Source: a virus
Virus record (IMG/VR): IMGVR_UViG_3300021392_000010
Coordinates: 1 to 44,646 of that record
Direction: 5' to 3' (one strand)
Length of the DNA: 44,646 bases
Shown: positions 10,205 to 38,254 of the stretch, in pieces
Layout: the number at the start of each line of letters is the position of its first letter
How positions within the stretch are numbered: the stretch's first letter is position 1
Made by a program: the position numbers and the translations under genes
The notes under the pieces: model-generated
Told to the model about the DNA's origin: nothing
The model's input: the letters and a program-made list of their open reading frames with translations, nothing else
The model's database searches: none

Positions 10205-10960
10205 ATGACCCGTAAGTTAGCAGTCTTCAACATGAAAGGTGGAGTAGGCAAATCCACAACCGCCTACAATCTCAGTGTTGGGTTAGCCAAATTTCATGAA
10301 AAGCGAGTTTTGCTGATAGATATTGACCCACAGGGCAATTCTGGAGCAGCCCTGGGAGTGCCCATTTGGGAGCTAGACACACAACTCAAACACGCTTTAC
10401 AGCGCCAAGCTCCCATTGAAAAGGCTTGCCTAACCACATCCCATAATGTCGATGTCGTACCTTCCAATATCTTGCTAGCAGAAGAAGAAATTCCTATTTC
10501 TGGTTTCCCTGGTCGAGAACTGCTATTGCGTAAAGCTATAGCTCCAGTAGTAGATCAGTATGATTTCATTCTTATCGACTGTCCCCCCAATATTGGAGTG
10601 TTTTCAATCAATGCTCTGATGGCAAGTGACGAGGTAATCATTCCGGTAGACATGAGCTACCTAGGATTGCTGGGAATTAAAGCTATTGAACGAGCCTTAA
10701 CCTTAGTGCGGGAAGCCCTTGACCACCCCGTCAAAATAAAGGGTGTGTTAGCGACTCGTTTTGATGGTCGCAACAATCTCAGTAAGGAGGTCTTGAAGTC
10801 CCTGCAAGAACACTTTGGCTCCCAGATGTTTTCCACCATCATCCCTGAAACAGTGAAGTTACGGGAAGCACCGAGCCACGGTAAATCTATCTTTGACTAT
10901 GACTCAAATGGAGCAGGAGCAAAGGCTTACCGTCAGTTAGTTGAGGAGTTAGTTAGATGA
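10205..10960 (+). CDS. parA: ParA-family partition ATPase
   Basis: 251 residues. ParA ATPases bind DNA non-specifically when ATP-bound and move plasmids or chromosomes with a ParB-type partner. Motifs: deviant Walker A KGGVGKSTTAYN at residues 12-23 with the signature lysine, LLIDIDPQGNSG (A'), and FILIDCPPNIG (Walker B-like). It lacks the N-terminal HTH of type Ia ParA, so it is the short type. The stop overlaps the start of the next gene by 4 bp (ATGA), so the two form an operon. Presence in the middle of a prophage suggests a phage-plasmid lifestyle or a captured plasmid cassette. Confidence 0.92.
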   Translation: MTRKLAVFNMKGGVGKSTTAYNLSVGLAKFHEKRVLLIDIDPQGNSGAALGVPIWELDTQLKHALQRQAPIEKACLTTSHNVDVVPSNILLAEEEIPISGFPGRELLLRKAIAPVVDQYDFILIDCPPNIGVFSINALMASDEVIIPVDMSYLGLLGIKAIERALTLVREALDHPVKIKGVLATRFDGRNNLSKEVLKSLQEHFGSQMFSTIIPETVKLREAPSHGKSIFDYDSNGAGAKAYRQLVEELVR

Positions 10961-11313
10961 GTAAAAAAAAGAGTTCCTTAGGTAGTAATCCTCTAGCCCA
11001 AGGGATTTTTAGTAAGACAGATGACTCTACCAATCAAGAATCAAGAATCAAGAATCAAGAATCAAGTTTCTTGAATGACTCAGAGAAAGAAAAGGTCAAC
11101 CTGCGGTTACCCATAGAGCTAAACGACTGGCTGGATGAACTACTCAAGCAGGGTAAACGTAAGCATGGTCAAAAGATTGCCAAGGAAATCTGGGTGCAAG
11201 CAGCCCTGGAGCTTCTTAGAGCCGCACCAGTAGATTGGCTTGATATTGATTCCGAGGAAACCCTACGCTCAACTCTCTCTCAACTTGAATCGAGTTTCAA
11301 GAATCAAGAATAG
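10957..11313 (+). CDS. ParA partner, small DNA-binding protein (inferred)
   Basis: 118 residues, translationally coupled to ParA. The N-terminus (KKSSLGSNPLAQGIFSK) resembles the short linker that small partition partners use to touch ParA. The second half (EKVNLRLPIELNDWLDELL, then KHGQKIAKEIWVQAALELL) has a strand-helix-helix pattern of ribbon-helix-helix proteins. Residues about 26-37 (NQESRIKNQESS) and the C-terminal FKNQE are encoded by a CAAGAAT tandem repeat, so the filler repeat has entered the gene in frame. Role is by context; the fold is a guess from pattern. Confidence 0.7.
   Translation: MSKKKSSLGSNPLAQGIFSKTDDSTNQESRIKNQESSFLNDSEKEKVNLRLPIELNDWLDELLKQGKRKHGQKIAKEIWVQAALELLRAAPVDWLDIDSEETLRSTLSQLESSFKNQE
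11032..11066. repeat. heptamer repeat inside the ParA partner gene
   Basis: Period-7 copies of AATCAAG, identical to the intergenic copies at 7798 and 10083, are translated as NQESRIKNQESS between the ParA-contact-like N-terminus and the putative DNA-binding domain. Confidence 0.85.
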
Positions 11314-11356
11314 CTACCTACTCCCTTCTTTGCGATCGCATTTTTGTCTGGTTGCC

Positions 11357-14257
11357 TCAAAAGTTCAAAATGCTCTGGATATTGTCCAGAATCTCATCAA
11401 GTTCAATATCGAAATGAGTTTTAAGGAACTCCATTAACCCAGCTCCCCGCTTGAGAATTGTAGGTAAGGCATCCATAGCGTTTTCTGCCATTTCTCGCAA
11501 GTCAGAGTTATTACGCTCTACTCCTAACTTACCGATAGTATCTAAGTGCTTCAGTGCCTTCTTTTTATCCTTCTCACTCAAGCCAGAATCTGGAGATGCG
11601 ATCGCAGCTTGTAGCTGCTTAAGTAAATCAGCTAGGGTTGGAGCTTCTGGTGATTCTGACTCACTGAGCTGATTAATCGTATTAGTAACCGTACCACTGA
11701 TATCACCACCAACAACATTAAATGTGCCAGTCGGTATCACCAATGTAGCATCCGGTACATTGGTGGCGGCATTGCCGATAATAAAGGGAGTTAGTTCGTT
11801 AGCACCACTATGTTGGATGATGATATTTCCACCGCCAATGCTACCACCTTGGGTATTAATCTCACCCAATTGAATGTCTCCGGAGGACTCAAGGGTGATA
11901 TTACCACTATCAATGGCTCCAGAGGCACTGTTAACTTGATTATCACCTGAGGTGCTAGTTAATTCTATCTTGTCTGAGGCGTTGATGCTTATTGAGCCAC
12001 CAGCAACACCGGAACTAGTGAGGGTAATATTGCCACCATCACCGGTCATTGAGCTACTAATAATAGAATCTGAAGTAATCTCTACCTGGTTCCCAGGTAG
12101 GGTAATATTGCCACCAGTAGTTTCCCCTGGAGCGTTAATCAAGGCAACTTGGATATTACCTGAACTGTTCCTTGGTGGTTCAATTTCCAAACTCAACAGA
12201 CTTCCCAGTTGACTAATCCTAACTAAATTTTCTCCTGACACAGCTGTGATTGTAAAGTTGCCGCCACTGACTGGAATAAGACTATTAATAATTGAGGGAT
12301 CATCGCCCACAACTCGCCCCAGGATATTCTGAACTTGGGAATCAGACAGAAAATTGGCAATCTGATTGGTGGAGAGTAGATTCGCTCCGTCGATTGAGGC
12401 AACCATTGCCTCTCCTTCCTCAATCATCTTGGAGGTCAAGATACCGGACCCTAGGCTGGCAGGAATTCTTGTGCTGTGTGGAAAAGTTGTCTCATCAGTC
12501 GGAAGTTCATCATTTGGGTCAGCGATGATACCGCCTGATTCCGTGGTATCCGCTGTCAAAACTCCCCCCTGACGAGTGCCACTGGCAGTTTCTGTTTGGA
12601 GGATGGAACCATTGGTGAGTTCTAAGTGATTAGCTTGGATAACAATATTTCCTCCATCAGTGGCTGCTGAAGAATTCAGGTTGCCGGTTGCAATTACTCC
12701 TATAGTACTGTTCATGCTAATATCGCCACCATCAGCAACTGTCACTTGACCCCCGTTTTGGATATTTAAGTGACCTGTATTAATACTGGTACGTCCGGCT
12801 ATCAAGTCAGCAGAGAGGCGCACTGATCCGCTGATGAAACTAAAGGTGTTGAAGAATTGGACATCACCCAGATGAACATTATGTGCAATAATGCTGGCAT
12901 CATCTAATCCATCGAGGACGCCACCTGCGGTATTGATTGAACCTCCAAGCGATCGCAAGATTACCGGCTCATCGAAAGTGATGTCACCCGCTAGGGTAAT
13001 TCCACCACCGCTGTTAGTGCGACCAATGCTAATAGAAGTAAAACCATCTTGCAACGGGCTAAATTCTGCCCCTGTCAAATCCAGGATGCCCACATTACCA
13101 TTATCCGTCCCACCAAGTGCGATGGTCGCTTCGCGAACCGCCGTAGGCATCGCTTGATTAGTGTTTAAGGGTTCTAGAGTCAGATTACTACTGAATACTG
13201 GGCTAGTAAAGTCAATTCCAGTCACATCAAGAACATTGGCATTATCACCTGTGCCACCAAGTTGAATATCTTTTACTATAGCTTCACCCTGGACAATCAA
13301 CTGCCCATCTTGGATGGCTATATTTCTCCCAGTTAAAGTATCAATAGTTGAAATATCAGCGGCAGCGGCGTCACCGTTATCATCTTGGGTAGCAGCTTTT
13401 ATTCTGATATCTCTATCATTGTTGACCCCAGAGGTGAGAAGGTCATCGATAGTAATCTGGGAACTATTTAAGACAATAGAGCCAGAACCATTAGTTGTCG
13501 TTGAGCTGCTATTAAGCACCCCATTTGTAGTATCAATGGAACCATTATCACTACGGAGGATGGCTTGGTCACTTGGTGGGACAGAAGCAACAGAGCGTCG
13601 TACACCTCCTGTCCTTTGTCCCCTCCTTCCCCTATCTCTTGGATTAAATTTCACCGAATCCGTGGCATCTGCTGTTAAAACTCTCTCCTGATCAATGCCA
13701 CTAACCAAACTTCTCAATCCACCCAAATTACTGCAATAGCTAACTCCACCTACTCCCACCAAAGCGAGTACTCCTAATACAGCCCCTATCAACTTACTAT
13801 GATTCTCCTGTTTCTTCGCTTTTAATTCAGGCGTATCAACTACTGCTTTAGGTTTTTCTGCGCTCGATTTAATTTCTGCCTCAACACTAGGTTCTGTCAG
13901 ATTGCTCAACCCTGAATTATTATTTTCGCAATAGTCGTGCTGCTGGGTAGCAACCTGAATAATTTCTTCTTCAACTGAAGAGTATTCATCCTGCTCAGCA
14001 CCTAATCTAGGCTCAATAAATTCTTTGATCCTCGCTTTTTGATTTTCATAGTGATGAACACTATCATCGTCCAAGAGATTTAGCTCTTGTAGGACAAAGT
14101 AATCAACTTCATTAATCAGAATGCCGAGCACGTCATCGGACTCGGCAAGTTCCAGTATTTCCCCCATGCGGTCAGCCTCTAGCTCAGATAGCTCAGAGCG
14201 AGCTGCTAGCCTTGCGTACTCTAAAACCAGATTACTTTGTGCTTGTGTTAGTTTCAT
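11357..14257 (-). CDS. membrane-anchored protein with hemagglutinin-like beta repeats, possible anti-sigma partner
   Basis: 966 residues. Residues 1-90 are helical and acidic ([21 protein letters not shown]), 90-150 a linker, 155-175 one membrane helix ([17 protein letters not shown]). The rest is a long repeat region of filamentous-hemagglutinin style ([44 protein letters not shown]), predicting a beta-helix, and a C-terminal helical part. The upstream neighbour, 36 bp away and in the same direction, is a sigma factor, so the cytoplasmic N-terminus may hold it in check. Unusual in having the repeat region behind a membrane anchor rather than a secretion signal. A 27-bp HIP1-site insertion adds nine residues near residue 375. 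Pairing is inference. Confidence 0.7.
13124..13150. repeat. 27-bp in-frame insertion splitting a HIP1 site
   Basis: The plus strand reads GCGAT, 27 bp, CGC. Removing the insert restores GCGATCGC and the protein text NQAIALGG; with it, nine residues (MPTAVREAT) are added. The insert holds the palindrome TTCGCGAA. Same junction as 6254-6274. Confidence 0.75.
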
Positions 14258-29027: not shown

Positions 29028-31313
29028 TTATCGCAAATCCACATATTGGCCTAAATCCTTATCCCGAAGAATCCGTCCCATTTTCTGATACTCCCTACCT
29101 AAGGCACGAATTAAATGGGCCATCTCGATTACTCCCCCATCGTCGGCGGCGAAAAATGCAGCTGTCAGGGCGATATTGCGTATATTCGCCCCGGTAATTT
29201 CCAAATTCTGGGCCAGAAACTCGTAATCGAGATTGGGGCTACAGGGTGCATCTTTGGGGAAGACCTTTTGCCAAATTTGCTGACGATTTTGGGCTGTGGG
29301 TAAGGCAAACTCCACGATAAAGCGCAGCCGCCGTTCAAAAGCTTCATCTAGATTATTGCGGAGATTTGTGGTTAAAATAGCTATACCTTCATACTCTTCC
29401 ATTTTTTGGAGCAGATAACCAACTTCGATATTCGCATAGCGATCGCGTGCGTCTTGTACTTCGGAACGTTTACCAAACAAGGCATCAGCTTCATCAAATA
29501 AGAGGATGGCATTGGAATTAGTCGCAGCGGTAAAGATGCGGTTGAGGTTTTTCTCCGTCTCGCCGATGTATTTACTGACTATTTGGGATAGGTCTATTTT
29601 ATAGAGGTATAGTTGCAAGTGCTGGGCTATTACCTCCGCCGCCATGGTTTTGCCTGTACCAGAAGCACCAGAAAACAGTACATTGAGTCCTTTACCTAGG
29701 GATAATTTCGCTGCAAAACCCCATTGTTGGTGGACTAGATCCTGATATTCCGCTTCTTTGCAGATATCTTGTAGTTGGGTGAGCTGATTGGGGGGTAGTA
29801 CAATATCATCCCAGGTATATTTGGGCTCAATTTTCCGGGCTAGGGTTGCTAAATCGTGACCGGATTGAGCACGGGCGGCAGTACAGAGGTTAGCAAAGGA
29901 TGGTTGGGGTTGGGCTGATTTGAAGTGGCCGTTGTTTGGAATTGAAGTAGGATGGGAATATGCGGTTTGAGTAGATTGCCAACGAGCGGTATTATAAGCA
30001 GTAGCCACGGCATCGGCAATTTGGTCTGGAGTCAGTAGAAAGCGATCGCTCAATTGTTCGAGTTCTTTCTCCTCTATGCTGATTTGCGCTGATTGGAGGT
30101 GAGATTGCCAGCATTCTCGGCGTTGGTGAGACTCTGGAATGGTAAAGGGAATGGTAATTACTCCCATTGCTCCCGTGGCTGGGGGTTGCCAATCTTGGAC
30201 TCCGGCGAGGATGGTTATGGTGCGATTGGTTTCTACTTGGGTAAGGAAGGTGGAATAGGAAGTATGATGTTCGGTGAGGTAGAGGAGATCGAAGTTATCT
30301 ATATATAGGATATGCCCAAAAAACCAGGCTTCTCGCCACAATAGTCGTAATTGCTCCTCACAGTTTGGTTTATCCTCAATTAGTTTGGCGATATCCGCTA
30401 TTAATAAGGATACGGATAAGCTTTGGGCAAGACATTTGGCAGTACGGCGTTTACCGGTGCGTCCGGTTCCTTGGAAATACAGTAGCAGGGGTCGTTGTTG
30501 TTGCCAATCTTCGATTACTAATGCTTGTAGTTGTTTTTGTACCTCTGGATGGAGGGATAAAGTCTCCTTCAATCCGGTAGATTCCCACCGTTGGCTACCA
30601 GATGTGATCTCAAGTTCGGACTTACTCTGGTCTTTTCCGTCTCCATTGCCAACAACTTCCTTCCCTTCTGCCTTCTGCCTTCTGCCCTCTGCCTTTATTC
30701 TCTCCTGGTGAAAGCATTCTACCGTACATGATCTGAGTCGCCCATCTAACCCCGGTTGTTGCAAGAGAAACCTCACCACTTGGGAGTCGAGGATCAGTTG
30801 CTGTGATAGTAAAGTGGGGAGTTGTTGAGGGGATTCACTAGTGAGATGGAGTAAGTGATGGTGGATCAGGGGTGCATTGCTGGAAAAATGCTGGCGTCGG
30901 GCAAATTTTTCCGGGATACTAGAGCAGAGTAAATTTAAAACTAAATCTACAGTTGGTCTTTTGCCGCTTAGGTCATCCTGGAGATAAACATAGACCTTTT
31001 CATAGTGACGGTCTAATTCTGGTGCTAATGCGATCGCGAGGATATATAAATCAAAGGCTGATAAGCTATAGGTGGTTATTAACTTTGCTAAGAGGGAATC
31101 GGACCGAATAGTTAAAGCTGGTACCTCTGATAACCCATAAGTAAGTAACCTTGGTACTGTAACATCCCCATCACCTACTTCCGAACCTTGGAGTAGGGAA
31201 ATCGCTTCTGCTATCAAATCATCTAATCCTTGCAGGAGAGGTTGCAACCCATTTAAATCTGGACTCATTTCCTCTTCTGGAGTAATGGGTATCGTAAATA
31301 CAGCGGTTTTCAT
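29028..31313 (-). CDS. eCIS AAA+ ATPase (Afp15/Pvc15-type)
   Basis: 761 residues with two ATPase lobes. The first is weak: GTGRTGKR at 282-289 stands in for Walker A, with ILYIDNF at 335-341. The second is complete: GASGTGKT at 549-556, LLFDEAD at 604-610, [16 protein letters not shown] (sensor/arginine finger). An N-terminal helical domain of about 250 residues precedes them. This is the conserved ATPase of eCIS clusters, thought to act in tail assembly or terminator loading. Residues 208-218 ([11 protein letters not shown]) are encoded by a GGCAGAA heptamer array. It is the last eCIS gene here, cut off from the fibre gene by plus-strand genes. Confidence 0.85.
30663..30695. repeat. CTTCTGC heptamer array inside the ATPase gene
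   Basis: Tandem 7-bp units like those in spacers are read in frame as [10 protein letters not shown] in the linker between the N-terminal part and the first ATPase lobe. Confidence 0.85.
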
Positions 31314-33046: not shown

Positions 33047-33221
33047 AAATCAATTAAAATTCAAAATTCAAAATCAATTCAAATGAATTCTCACCAAATA
33101 TCGTGTCAAAAGTAAAGCTATGGTGGTGTCTCTTGCAAAGGCGATCGCAATTTCGGTGTCTTCCCTGGCATTCAATACAGTCGCGATGATAAGATATATT
33201 CTTCTTCAATTACTGGTAGTT

Positions 33222-33264: not shown

Positions 33265-34299
33265 ATGATCGAACAAATCGCCTCCGATGAAGTATTAGAA
33301 GCCGCATATCAATGGTTGTGTGACAAACGCGCCCATCACCATTTTAATGCCGATGTCTGGCAGGTGAGGCGCTGGTGGCACGAGAAAAAACCGATGTTAC
33401 AGCAGCTACTACTCTCCGGAAGATATCTGTTTCGGGAATTGCGCTTGTTTCGGGGAGAAGACCAGATGATCGAGTGTTGGTCATCTATGGATGCTTTGGT
33501 GCTAAAAGCGATCGCATTAGTGTTGGGGGAACACCTTAAACCCCATCTTTCCCAGCGCTGTTTTAATGTAGCTGGTAATGGAGGGATGAAGGCAGCGGTG
33601 CGGGAGGTGGGGGCTAATCTGTCTAAGTATAAATTTGTGTTTCGCACTGATGTTAAGGGCTATTATGCAAGCATTAATCATCACATTCTGATGGAGCAAG
33701 TAGGGCAATATGTGGAAGATGATGCAGTTAAGGCTTTGCTTTGGGGTTATTTACGGCGGTATGTTAGTGATGGTGGCCATTATCTCGATATTACCCAGGG
33801 GATCTCCTTGGGTTGTCCCCTCTCCCCGTTGATGGGGGCGCTTTACCTCAAGCCGTTGGATGACCGTATAGCTCCCCTCCTGGGAGGGGTTGGGGGTGGG
33901 TTAGGCTGCTATTATGTCAGGTTTATGGATGATTGGGTTATCCTAGCACCGACTCGCTGGAAGTTGCGCAAGGCGATTAAGGCGGTAAATGAGGTTATGT
34001 CGGACTTGCGGGTGGAGAAGCACCCGGATAAAACCTTTATTGGACGGATTGCCAAAGGATTTGATTTTCTCGGATACTGGTTTTCTCCCGATGGATTAGG
34101 TATTGCTCGGAAAACGGTGGAACGGATGTTGGAGAAGGTGTCTCGGCTTTTAGAGCAAGGTGCGGATGAGCTTCGCATTGAGACCTATGTCCAGCGATGG
34201 TGGCTATGGGTTCGGTCAGGTGTGGATAGATGTTTGTCAGCGGATAATTGCTTTTGTTCACGTTTGCTCTCTTTTTCGAGTCTTCGCTTATCACGCTAA
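33265..34299 (+). CDS. reverse transcriptase of an unassigned class, beside the eCIS fibre gene
   Basis: 344 residues with a full RT palm: FRTDVKGYYASIN (first Asp, D129), GISLGCPLSPLMGALYL (motif B, about 179-195), YYVRFMDDWVIL (catalytic FMDD, 220-223), and EKHPDKTFIGR then GFDFLGYWFS (thumb side). It is not a DGR enzyme: those have GxxxSQ in motif B. It is not a typical group II intron maturase: no X or endonuclease domain, and FMDD instead of YADD. Residues about 205-214 (LLGGVGGGLG) derive from an in-frame dispersed repeat. It converges on the tail-collar gene, 42 bp away. Its template is unknown; see findings. Confidence 0.9.
   Translation: MIEQIASDEVLEAAYQWLCDKRAHHHFNADVWQVRRWWHEKKPMLQQLLLSGRYLFRELRLFRGEDQMIECWSSMDALVLKAIALVLGEHLKPHLSQRCFNVAGNGGMKAAVREVGANLSKYKFVFRTDVKGYYASINHHILMEQVGQYVEDDAVKALLWGYLRRYVSDGGHYLDITQGISLGCPLSPLMGALYLKPLDDRIAPLLGGVGGGLGCYYVRFMDDWVILAPTRWKLRKAIKAVNEVMSDLRVEKHPDKTFIGRIAKGFDFLGYWFSPDGLGIARKTVERMLEKVSRLLEQGADELRIETYVQRWWLWVRSGVDRCLSADNCFCSRLLSFSSLRLSR
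33872..33905. repeat. dispersed repeat inside the RT gene, between motifs B and C
   Basis: Reverse complement of 25063-25094 with few differences; adds about ten Leu/Gly/Val residues between KPLDDRIA and CYYVRFMDD, keeping the frame. Confidence 0.8.
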
Positions 34300-34341: not shown

Positions 34342-36228
34342 TTATAATTTCATTATGAAACATAGTGCATATGATGCTGGCTTGTAGGTGAGCGGCATTT
34401 GCACCCCCCGACTTCCTTTGAGCGCCGCCTCCCTGCCTTCGTACACCACCCCCGGACCCATCACAACCCGTCCCCTATTATACGTTCCTATGTCGGCAGC
34501 AATCATTCCCTCCTTTACCTCACTATCCTTTACTACTCGGAACCTCATCTTCTCAGCGCCCTCCTCGCCGAACCAATCCAACGCTTGCCAATCGACCACT
34601 CCATCTCCCATTAATAAACTTCCACGGATTGCTGACCAACCCTGCGTAGTATACCGCACCCCCAGGGCCGTCCCCACTCCCTCTAACCCCTTGGCATCAC
34701 CGCCCACCCCCATTGTTAATTCGTCTAAAGGCAATTGATTAGCGCTTATCATGCTCCCTTCGCTGGCCTTCGCTCCTGCCTCACCCTTCTTGCCAACGCT
34801 CGATATAAAACGGCCTCGCAAGTCCGGCGTTCCATTCTTTCCATCACACAAACTCCACCCCGTTGGTACTTGCTCTCCCTCGCCTGTACTGTGCCACATG
34901 ACGATGGTGCCCGATGGGATCACACTTTCTCTGTATCGTCCACCACTGTGTAGCGTCCCTCCTGTTCCTATCTTCAGCCCTTTCATCCCTTCCCCATTAT
35001 AGTAGCCCACCAATAGGCGGTTGCCCGCAACTTCCCCTTTGCCCGTTTTGAAATTGATAATCTTGTACTCTACTGTATTCGTCCCTTCGTTACCGTTGGT
35101 CTGCACCTCCGCATATACCGCATCCCACGGTTTCAATAATATGCCCTTTTGTAAATTTACCTCTCGCTCTTTTTCGTCATATACGTTCTTTGCTGCTATT
35201 GATTTGCCTGGCATCGGAAGCTCTATTTTGTACTGCCTCCTTTTTCCGTCTCCTCCATCGAATATGCCACCTGCGACGAATTTCTCCCATTTGAACCATC
35301 CCACTCTGTCACCGTTTGCGCCTCCCGCCTCCAATTTCCAACTCACCTCACCGCCTCCTGTCATGGTATATTGCGCTTTCATAAAATCGTTGACTGGACT
35401 TCTCAACTCACCTTTTATGAACGCATTCCCATCGACAACTAGCTTGGCCTCGCCTGAAGGATACTCACTCCCTATGCTTAAGGCTCCTTCTATTCTTACT
35501 TTATCGCCCTGCCATGATGTAGTGCATATTTGACTATCACCTTCTACTTTCAAGCCTCCTGCCCCTTCAATACTATTATCTCTGCCCAATACTCTTAGTT
35601 TGCCCTCAATCTCTAACGGTCCAGATAAAACGGCTATCTCTAATTTTTTCTCACTTCCTCCAACGTTCTTTCTCTCTTGGGTTCGCATTGTAATTCCGCC
35701 ATCACGCTTATTGCTCGGTAATTTGATGCCTGAATACTCCCCTGTTGTCCATTCGGGGTTGGTTTTTCCTCCCTTTGTATCCCGCTTCGCTATCGTGACA
35801 CCATAGGCGGAAGTCGTTTGTGCATATTCAATTTTTGGAGCCTCTTTCCATCTTCGGTATCCCTCCTTCTCTCCTTTCTTTCCTTTTTGTTGCTCGTCTG
35901 GATTTTCATTATATTCGATATAAATCAACCCGCCAATATTGTTCGCTTTCTTCTTTATCCATTCTTCTGAATTCCAAGTTACCTGCTTTTCTAAAACAAT
36001 TAACCTTCCTTTGATATCTATAGCCGATCCTGGTTGTATAGTAACTTTCTCCTTATCCTCCTTTACTTCTAGTCCTTCAATTATTCCGCTAACATAAAGC
36101 CGACTTGTTTTGTACCGTTGGCGAGCTAGCAAATAATTTTGTTGCAGGTTAAAGTCTTCTGCTAATAAATATTGTCCCCCAAAATAGTTGGGTCGTGTAC
36201 TTAGCACATCATCTGATTTATCTGCCAT
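34342..36228 (-). CDS. eCIS tail-fibre-like protein with tail-collar domain
   Basis: 628 residues. The N-terminus (RPNYFGGQYLLAEDFNLQQN) is an attachment domain seen at baseplate-linked proteins, about 1-85. A long beta-rich shaft follows. From about 440 comes a phage tail-collar domain: IPSGTIVMWHSTGEGEQ, then GWSLCDGKNGTPDLRGRFI; the end YKPASYALCFIMKL is its conserved last strand. Such proteins bind surface targets. The gene follows tail protein I, the usual fibre position. It changes from host-like A-rich codons to G-rich ones along its length, except for the last 13 codons, which are A/T-rich again. Role as fibre is inferred; the domain is clear. Confidence 0.8.
   Translation of the reverse strand: MADKSDDVLSTRPNYFGGQYLLAEDFNLQQNYLLARQRYKTSRLYVSGIIEGLEVKEDKEKVTIQPGSAIDIKGRLIVLEKQVTWNSEEWIKKKANNIGGLIYIEYNENPDEQQKGKKGEKEGYRRWKEAPKIEYAQTTSAYGVTIAKRDTKGGKTNPEWTTGEYSGIKLPSNKRDGGITMRTQERKNVGGSEKKLEIAVLSGPLEIEGKLRVLGRDNSIEGAGGLKVEGDSQICTTSWQGDKVRIEGALSIGSEYPSGEAKLVVDGNAFIKGELRSPVNDFMKAQYTMTGGGEVSWKLEAGGANGDRVGWFKWEKFVAGGIFDGGDGKRRQYKIELPMPGKSIAAKNVYDEKEREVNLQKGILLKPWDAVYAEVQTNGNEGTNTVEYKIINFKTGKGEVAGNRLLVGYYNGEGMKGLKIGTGGTLHSGGRYRESVIPSGTIVMWHSTGEGEQVPTGWSLCDGKNGTPDLRGRFISSVGKKGEAGAKASEGSMISANQLPLDELTMGVGGDAKGLEGVGTALGVRYTTQGWSAIRGSLLMGDGVVDWQALDWFGEEGAEKMRFRVVKDSEVKEGMIAADIGTYNRGRVVMGPGVVYEGREAALKGSRGVQMPLTYKPASYALCFIMKL
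34381..36180 (-). other. A-to-G composition gradient along the fibre gene
   Basis: Coding-strand base counts per 300 nt, made by hand, from the 5' side: 35881-36180 G 71, A 122; 35581-35880 G 88, A 116; 35101-35400 G 99, A 103; 34681-34980 G 112, A 85; 34381-34680 G 126, A 73. Coding T is 69, 48, 55, 52, 59 and C is 38, 48, 43, 51, 42. The last 39 nt (34342-34380) have G 4, A 15. Confidence 0.85.
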
Positions 36229-36239
36229 TTTTTCCTCTC

Positions 36240-36947
36240 TTATTTATGGCCACCGACCGTTGTTCCTATAACCGTGTTTCCGGTATATACACCAGGGCTC
36301 TTTTGTTTACAGATTATTAGCGGTTCCTTTTCTTCCAGAATTTTAGATTTACTTGGTATTCTCATCGTTGGCACAAGGATTTTGAGGGCATAAAAAGTAT
36401 CTGCCGCCTTCTCCCGATCGATTATTGCTTTGGCTATCTTCCATAATTGCCAATATTTCTCATAATTATGGTCTTTAATTGTTAATATGACTTGAAAATA
36501 ATACGGTAAATTGTCAAACTGATCAAAGACTTTAATTTTTTCTTCACTTTTTAATCCGGATACCTCCAAGTAAAGCTCCAATATTTTTATTAATCCTGCT
36601 TTTGTTCCTCGCATATGATAGATTCCCACCATTTGCTGAATAAATGCTCTTTGAACATCTATTGACCAATCTTCTCGTAAGCTTAACGCTATCCAACCCG
36701 CTAACCAAGGTAAAAATTCCTTAGGTGTATGTTGAGAATTAAAATAGAGATAAATTATATCAATAATCTCTTCTAATCCAGGTGGCTTCTGTTGTTCCCC
36801 TGTTAGGATAATTGGCGCGGAATTATCGTTACCTCTGAGAATTTTTTCAAATGCCAGTAAAAACTTACCCAAGAAGATATCTTTTTGGAGAGTAGCTGGT
36901 AAATATTGGTTATAGATACTGGATGCTTCAGTATTCCTTTCTTTCAT
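36240..36947 (-). CDS. eCIS phage tail protein I-like (baseplate-fibre linker)
   Basis: 235 residues. Matches the tail protein I style: LAFEKILRG, then FLPWLAGWIALSLREDW, RAFIQQMVGIYHMRGTKAGL (the family's conserved W-x-x-R and R-G-T-x-x-G-L blocks) and IKILELYLEVSG. It links wedge to fibre. It overlaps the preceding J-like gene by 20 bp and ends 11 bp before the fibre gene, so the three are one operon. No irregularity. Confidence 0.83.
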   Translation of the reverse strand: MKERNTEASSIYNQYLPATLQKDIFLGKFLLAFEKILRGNDNSAPIILTGEQQKPPGLEEIIDIIYLYFNSQHTPKEFLPWLAGWIALSLREDWSIDVQRAFIQQMVGIYHMRGTKAGLIKILELYLEVSGLKSEEKIKVFDQFDNLPYYFQVILTIKDHNYEKYWQLWKIAKAIIDREKAADTFYALKILVPTMRIPSKSKILEEKEPLIICKQKSPGVYTGNTVIGTTVGGHK

Positions 36948-37926
36948 TTCCTATTTTTTCGACTATTGTAAATTGGCTACCTTCGAGTTGGATTAATTGA
37001 TTTGGCTTGAGAGATATTTCGGTTGATGTGCTACTACCTTGATTCTTAGACTTTTCCGCACTTGTTATATGATATTTATTATTGGTAGTATCTTTGGTTA
37101 TTTGTAGACGAGGAATATAATCTACTCCGTCTATATCTTCTAATACTTTATATAATTCAGAAAGATAAACACTCTTGCCAAATGGCCATCCTTTGCCCTG
37201 CCAATATTTTCCAGAATTGTAAGGAGCAAAAAAATTTTGGATTTCGTATTCTGCCTTCTTTTTTACTTCTTTTGCAAGGGTACCATCTTTAGTTACTAAT
37301 TTAGCTTTTATTGTTACATATACATACTCTGGTTCTACAATATGTATTATAGTCGTTAAAAGCCTTCTTGGGTCTAGGAACTCAAATAAAGGTTTATATT
37401 TCTTCTCGTCGAAGTCTTGATGATTATTTTCCGGAACAACTAGTAAGCTAATATGTCCTTTGGCTGGGGAATCCTTATTAGCTTGAAGATTGCGTTGTGG
37501 AAAGCACTTAGCCTTGGCGATTCTTAGGTCTTTGCTTTCTTCTTCTTTATTCCATACTTCTAGGACTAATTTCTCATAGTCAGATGTTGAAACTGCCCGA
37601 TAAGGCTGGCGTAATTCTTCTAAAGTATTCTGAATTTCAGATTGTAAGTTTTTTCGTCTATCGGATAGTGTAATATCTTTAGTAGATGATTTTAATTGTT
37701 CACCTTTGAGTAAGCTAAGAAAGCTGACATAATTTTCATCAGGAATTTGATCCACTCGATAAAGAGTCATTTCCGTTAACCATGCCAACAATTCTATCAG
37801 AATTATTCCCGTATCTGTTGGGTTATGATCTGTCCATTCAGGATATTCATCATGAATTTGAGAAATTGCCTCGGCTACTAAATCAGCATAGCTGCGATTG
37901 TCCAGGTTAGGTAAGGGGAGAGTCAT
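36928..37926 (-). CDS. eCIS baseplate J-like protein, short form
   Basis: 332 residues. Opening LPNLDNRSYADLVAEAISQI and EWTDHNPTDTGIILIELLAWLTEMTLYR is the conserved N-terminal part of the wedge J family, and PYRAVSTSDYEKLVLEVWN with VYVTIKAKLV is the J core. Afp and PVC clusters carry two J-like wedge proteins of unequal size (Afp11 and Afp12); this would be the shorter. The start overlaps nothing; a 328-bp spacer of AAATTC and CCTCAAG repeats separates it from the long J gene. Confidence 0.82.
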   Translation of the reverse strand: MTLPLPNLDNRSYADLVAEAISQIHDEYPEWTDHNPTDTGIILIELLAWLTEMTLYRVDQIPDENYVSFLSLLKGEQLKSSTKDITLSDRRKNLQSEIQNTLEELRQPYRAVSTSDYEKLVLEVWNKEEESKDLRIAKAKCFPQRNLQANKDSPAKGHISLLVVPENNHQDFDEKKYKPLFEFLDPRRLLTTIIHIVEPEYVYVTIKAKLVTKDGTLAKEVKKKAEYEIQNFFAPYNSGKYWQGKGWPFGKSVYLSELYKVLEDIDGVDYIPRLQITKDTTNNKYHITSAEKSKNQGSSTSTEISLKPNQLIQLEGSQFTIVEKIGNERKEY

Positions 37927-38254
37927 AAATCATAAGCGCCTAACGGCGAATTCAAAATTCAAAATTCAAAATTCAAAATTGATGAACCAGCTAAAAAAAA
38001 GGTTGTTATTAGTCTTATCAAGGAATTTAGCCATATTGATTGTTACCATTTCTAGTTTCTCAAGAGCTCCCCAGGAGCGCTTCGCACCCCCAATTAATGG
38101 GAGAAACATATCTCTTACCTCCTCCTGCCTCAAGCCTCAAGCCTCGCCTCCTGCTTCAAGCCTCGCCTCCTGCCTCAAGCCTCCTGCTTCTCGAGAGTAA
38201 TGAACATTAGTGGAACATCAGCCCCCAATTGAATGTAAGAAACAATTCTGTTCC
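37927..38254. repeat. repeat-filled spacer between the two J-like genes
   Basis: AAAATTC heptamers at about 37951-37980, an ECF-type GC patch (ggagcgcttcgcac) near 38067, and mixed CCTCAAG/CCTCCTG units at 38119-38190. A small open frame from 37982 has a hydrophobic start but runs into the repeats and is not accepted as a gene. Confidence 0.7.

Follow-up and report, generated by a model that had tools for sequence, protein, structure and literature searches.

Why does a fibre gene of an extracellular contractile injection system (eCIS) trade adenine for guanine along its length, and does the reverse transcriptase (RT) gene that faces it have a part in this? The question is raised by a 44.6-kb viral record, called the window here (the whole stretch of DNA that was analysed, 44,646 nucleotides), which carries an eCIS locus with baseplate, spike, hub, Tail_P2_I and AAA genes. 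In this locus the fibre gene and the gene for an RT of 344 aa are convergent, with 42 bases between them. A sequence-only reading had described a smooth A-to-G gradient along the fibre gene with a sharp 3' edge, and had attributed it to repeated A-to-G change tied to the RT.

The fibre gene and its locus

The features of the locus are collected in Table 1. Residues 14-113 of the fibre match NF053767 (E=9e-12, under the equivalog cutoff of 370 bits), and residues 275-628 match phrog_1800, a tail collar fibre family (E=1e-19). The N-terminal anchor, residues 1-215, is homologous to other cyanobacterial eCIS fibres at 32-44% identity. The fibre has a CIS13-family N-terminus inside an eCIS cluster, with Tail_P2_I, baseplate J, spike and AAA genes alongside. 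The gene order AAA, RT, fibre, CIS12 recurs in Hormoscilla (L015), and a Moorena-like host for the window is compatible, not proven. No relatives of the fibre or the RT were found among the viral contigs scanned. An A-T rich repeat, AAAATTCAAAATTC, lies at window positions 33056-33074, upstream of the RT, and again at 37954-37972, past the baseplate gene; a sequence resembling it is found exactly at the edge of a truncated RT at another locus (L069:5230-5260).

Table 1. Coordinates of the fibre gene, its parts and its neighbours in the window
Feature	Positions	Strand	Remarks
eCIS AAA ATPase	29028..31313	(-)	profile match
UG4-class reverse transcriptase	33265..34299	(+)	convergent with fibre; PADLOC RT_UG4, RVT_1
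eCIS fibre gene	34342..36228	(-)	628 aa; CIS13-type N-terminus and tail-collar C-terminal module
Last 14 fibre codons	34345..34386	(-)	conserved collar terminus, composition back to A-rich
Fibre collar module, aa 275-628	34345..35406	(-)	distal part G-rich; aa 397-614: G 40%, T 19%, fourfold purine 0.68
Fibre N-terminal anchor, aa 1-215	35584..36228	(-)	A-rich, T-poor; G/(A+G) 0.40, fourfold purine 0.65
CIS12/Tail_P2_I gene	36240..36947	(-)	silent differences versus RT-free homologues balanced
Baseplate J-like gene	36928..37926	(-)	outside footprint

Base composition along the fibre gene

The trade between A and G along 34342-36228 is significant, third positions included. By sixths of the gene, coding-strand G runs 23, 28, 34, 31, 38 and 37% and A runs 38, 40, 33, 36, 28 and 26%, with C at 13-17% and T at 15-25%. 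A logistic trend in A/G gains 14.6 log units over 1235 purines and 9.0 at third positions, where G/(A+G) climbs from 0.34 to 0.60. By thirds of the gene G/(A+G) is 0.40, 0.49 and 0.58, the largest rise among the 33 window genes, and none of the other entries in a set of about 37 cyanobacterial CIS13 fibres has as steep a slope.

The trend described in the sequence-only reading was thus found again, but its strict monotonic smoothness was not: a single step at about nt 1191 of the gene (0.43 to 0.59) matches the linear fit in quality. Since one step fits equally well, a smooth gradient is not demanded. The sharp 3' edge fared in a similar way. The final 42 nt do return to an A-rich composition (A 38%, G 12%), and they encode YKPASYALCFIMKL, a collar-fibre end; the Hormoscilla fibre ends similarly, in YYSLCYIIKV. 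Because these nucleotides encode a conserved collar terminus, the edge is most simply read as a conserved protein motif.

The next-steepest slope belongs to another fibre gene (L047/L069), whose 3' end is faced by the last 32 codons of a UG4 RT. In Hormoscilla the RT is broken and the A/G slope is absent. With a slope beside RT sequence in the window and in L047/L069 and none in Hormoscilla, the gradient alone is therefore suggestive, not consistent.

Silent sites of the fibre and of its RT-free homologues

The poverty of T at the silent sites of the fibre is visible only against other genes and relatives. Fourfold-site T is 0.15, the lowest of the 33 window genes. Homologues without an RT next to them (L072, L074 and L071, the last with an RT fragment about 9 kb off) served as comparators for the collar module. 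The module has 40% G against 21-25% in these comparators, 19% T against 28-31%, and 26% A against 27-33%; at fourfold sites its purine fraction is 0.68 against 0.40-0.44, and its G/(A+G) is 0.60 against 0.39-0.48. Judging by these RT-free homologues, domain chemistry or codon choice alone is insufficient to explain the composition of the fibre, as had been argued before.

Counts of silent differences from the homologues at fourfold sites reuse sites over several homologues and are unpolarised, so they show the direction of difference only: at identical residues, T to purine against the reverse is 53:12 in the C-terminal half of the fibre and 69:22 in the N-terminal half, and is balanced (20:25) in the CIS12/Tail_P2_I gene next to it, while A to G against the reverse is 16:6 in the C-terminal half and 16:25 in the N-terminal half. 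The main feature of the fibre is a loss of T on the fibre strand, which is a loss of A on the RT strand, spanning the gene, with the A/G slope on top of it. The excess of A to G is confined to the C-terminal half.

These counts bear on the mechanism that was proposed first, an RT-driven, repeated replacement of A by G on the fibre strand that is most frequent at the 3' end. Such a change would explain a slope that is real and is steepest in two fibres facing an intact RT or an RT remnant, and it would explain the A-to-G excess in the C-terminal half. It would not explain why T to purine dominates the whole fibre, why a step fits as well as a trend, or why Hormoscilla has no slope. Beyond the window, a first comparison of eCIS_core genes found silent purine enriched beside the RT with G/(A+G) unshifted (0.41 v 0.37, p=0.35), and G/(A+G) pooled over 34 loci is not monotonic towards the RT. 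We consider this mechanism very unlikely.

The fibre could instead be an ordinary mosaic in which the RT had no part, a foreign Gly-rich collar module on a host-like N-terminus. The module structure of the fibre and the step at about nt 1191 are what such a mosaic would give. However, the silent-site shift is missing from homologues of both modules that have no RT next to them, and the association with a UG4 RT recurs in many unrelated genes, which makes an ordinary mosaic an unlikely explanation.

A UG4-class reverse transcriptase

The best PADLOC profile for the RT is RT_UG4 (E=1.5e-114, 380 bits), with the next profile at 1.6e-36 and 124 bits. The conserved part of the protein stops at about aa 321 (base 34227), and the fourfold A of its gene is 0.19. 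Its closest relatives are in filamentous cyanobacteria, for example Symploca, Nostoc and Okeania; in 2014 UG4 was described as restricted to Proteobacteria (PMC4244168). UG4 RTs have been reported as a class without known function, with fimbrial genes adjacent to them in 66% of cases (PMC8934634). The window neighbours that were tested, which are the eCIS genes, a Uma2 gene and an unassigned small ORF, include no fimbrial genes.

In sequence the RT is also related to group II and group II-like RTs. A domain profile search detected no maturase or endonuclease domain in it, and a search of the UG4 RT loci for Rfam introns found no match in the window and a single match, about 4 kb from the RT, at L128. 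The features examined do not place the RT among the diversity-generating retroelements (DGRs): the class is UG4, and by inspection QGISLGCPLSP stands where the SQ motif is expected. The window contains no template/variable repeat pair, and no match to the fibre gene in it is longer than 25 bp.

Two other UG4 loci have features of their own. At L005:4552-7875 the UG4 RT is split near aa 252, and the insert bears a second RT on the opposite strand that is probably group II-like. At L013:7947-13756 (Legionellaceae) about 4 kb separate a UG4-like RT from a protein whose C-terminus reads NSFRVRCSRAF, in appearance a DGR-type variable domain; an ORF between the two (10671-11876) was flagged by a YxDD motif only.

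A silent-site footprint at cyanobacterial UG4 loci

The footprint was studied at 34 cyanobacterial UG4-like RT 3' ends, with simple open frames as gene calls. These loci share ancestry in the RT part, and their slots are more independent and mostly non-homologous. Most of the RT 3' ends are followed by a convergent open frame within about 40-480 bp. Fourfold A on the RT strand, for which bootstrap intervals were computed, is 0.11-0.17 in the RT ORF. In the convergent gene it is 0.13-0.20 for the first 1.25 kb, which is about half the background of 0.24-0.33 found in most of the bins that lie upstream or past about 2 kb. When values are paired within each locus, sense T is 0.162 near the RT and 0.318 far from it, the near value being the smaller at 20 of 21 loci (p=1.9e-6); for A in the RT gene the figures are 0.129 and 0.279, and it is reduced at all 14 loci compared (p=1.2e-4). 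Mean T was 0.334 in 30 control convergent pairs away from RTs (p=1.5e-8), and T in eCIS_core tips was 0.14 beside an RT and 0.33 in RT-free paralogues, mostly from the same genomes (p=7e-4). Nearness to a UG4-class RT is statistically tied to altered silent composition, and in this sense, as an association, the suspected involvement of the RT is borne out.

The footprint is not uniform in kind. The bases that replace the lost A on the RT strand are G inside the RT and C and T downstream, with no uniform change of A to N. Other cyanobacterial RT classes, tried as a control for A loss, are widely scattered in fourfold A, and Ti/Tv counts in the anchors, low and noisy, carry no weight in the argument. 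UG4-like loci outside cyanobacteria (L006, L013, L017, L018 and L020) show no skew.

General strand asymmetry from replication or transcription would produce a strand-specific bias such as this one. But window neighbours on the same strand are normal, and the footprint, seen in many genomes, has the RT at its centre and dies away over about 2-3 kb, so we give this explanation almost no weight.

The purine-rich region was also considered as a conserved 3' UTR. This was rejected, since blast among the downstream slots gave no common element body that reaches further than about 50-160 bp past the RT. Copies of a 58-bp sequence that directly follows the Nostoc UG4 RT (L004:8973-9030) are scattered through about a dozen Nostoc genomes, with identities of about 80%, and a DNA search of the Nostoc slot within the genus returned only a short dispersed repeat.

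Replaced gene ends and truncated RTs

The genes that converge on UG4 RTs are eCIS fibres (the window, L069 and L015), eCIS_core effectors (L008, L022, L143, L141 and L134), and other partners: an SpvB/TcdB/Rhs-type gene (L002, with L010 sequence-related), M35 metallopeptidases and a VWA protein. When related species are compared, identity is about 85-97% in the RT end and in the anchor, but the intervening 0.7-1.3 kb align no better than chance. At one site by a sigma-factor gene, sister genomes have an intact, a truncated or a missing RT and unrelated slot genes, with flanks 87-98% identical. Gene ends or whole slot genes are replaced here, which is beyond the reach of point mutation.

Large sigma-factor-like genes (ECF type by inspection) are recurrently found upstream of the variable slot (L128, L021, L003, L139, L009, L025, L129 and L004).

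The RTs themselves are often incomplete. The 52 distinct copies include 12 full ones and 23 that are 5'-truncated but retain the 3' end; 6 were scored as 3'-truncated, and at least 2 of these (L005 and L138) retain RT 3' sequence further on. In L144, downstream of 5126, a second degenerate RT 3' end lies about 150 bp after the first, and in L130 two RT 3' ends are about 2.2-5 kb apart; these tandem ends look as if left by successive events.

A passive cassette pool could produce much of this. Polymorphic gene ends would move by ordinary recombination and bring their own purine-rich, T-poor codon usage, and the UG4 RT fragment would be a hitch-hiker or a homology arm. The slots are indeed non-homologous replacements, RT fragments that cannot be active still keep their 3' ends, and the sigma-factor anchors past the slot, which served as a test of spread beyond it, are unshifted in composition, so the shift stops with the slot. 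This explanation remains strong, and we regard it as quite possible. It is set against the RT ORF, which is itself A-depleted on the same strand, the N-terminal anchor of the fibre, which is homologous to RT-free fibres and is also T-poor, and the eCIS_core anchors beside RTs, which are purine-shifted.

A proposed retroelement for gene ends

The reading we favour, at a probability of roughly 0.48, is that a UG4 retroelement has the fibre gene as its variable partner and would copy or exchange convergent gene ends by way of RNA in the RT sense, losing adenines as it does so. It builds on the composition footprint, the truncation of the RTs and the replacement of gene ends, and from these we infer an RNA, a cDNA, adenine errors and installation at an anchor. 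A transcript in the RT sense would continue past the RT and cover the end of the facing gene in antisense. Reverse transcription would begin in that gene end and often halt inside the RT, giving 5' truncation, and the cDNA would then be installed at an anchor gene, where it replaces the gene end or inserts one. Through errors at adenines of the template, the RT strand would lose A and the fibre strand correspondingly T. The outcome in the window would be a T-poor fibre gene, and the A-to-G slope would be a local mosaic of A-rich anchor and G-rich collar module on top.

A more specific version is offered tentatively. In it the cyanobacterial UG4 RT would be a self-templating retroelement: it would reverse transcribe the RNA that encodes it, along with the facing toxin or fibre tip in antisense, and place the cDNA at anchor genes. 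Tips would spread or be exchanged through RNA, and each round would erode A on the RT strand and leave 5'-truncated RT scars. Several observations speak against a retroelement account: the non-uniform replacing bases, the Hormoscilla fibre with its broken RT and no A/G slope, the wide variation of fourfold A in other cyanobacterial RT classes, and the unshifted sigma-factor anchors, which also fit imported cassettes with their own codon usage.

Comparison with known systems

The proposed retroelement shares its profile match with known UG4 RTs; here a cyanobacterial branch faces eCIS fibres, effectors and other polymorphic genes, and has a silent-site footprint. As in a DGR, an RT adjoins a surface-binding gene that is variable in its C-terminal part, and the loss of adenine from one strand resembles template-adenine errors (PMC12875486, PMC3240598). 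The UG4 RT may work in a manner similar to a DGR. Unlike in DGRs, the RT is UG4 and faces its target, a template repeat is absent from the window, whole domains are replaced where DGRs make point mutations, and the footprint spans the RT too.

The conserved N-terminus and exchangeable C-terminal domain are shared with polymorphic toxins (CDI/Rhs, eCIS_core effectors), and several of the convergent targets are themselves eCIS_core or Rhs/SpvB proteins. What differs from polymorphic toxins is that the 3' end of a convergent RT marks the downstream edge of the variable tip. The 5'-truncated copies with 3' ends kept are as in non-LTR and group II-type retroelements; unlike in group II elements, intron RNA near the searched UG4 RTs and maturase and endonuclease domains were not found. 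A search of the open-licence literature found no paper that connects UG4, or an RT of any other class, with eCIS fibres or effector tips.

Together, the silent-site scar and the swapped gene ends point to an undescribed route by which gene ends are exchanged or rewritten. The sister-species sites make the hypothesis directly testable, and the silent-site footprint is a cheap genomic assay for past action of such an RT. So far no function has been assigned to UG4 RTs. Should they indeed write or swap the ends of fibres and effectors in injection systems, this would be a retroelement route, distinct from DGRs, for diversifying binding and delivery.
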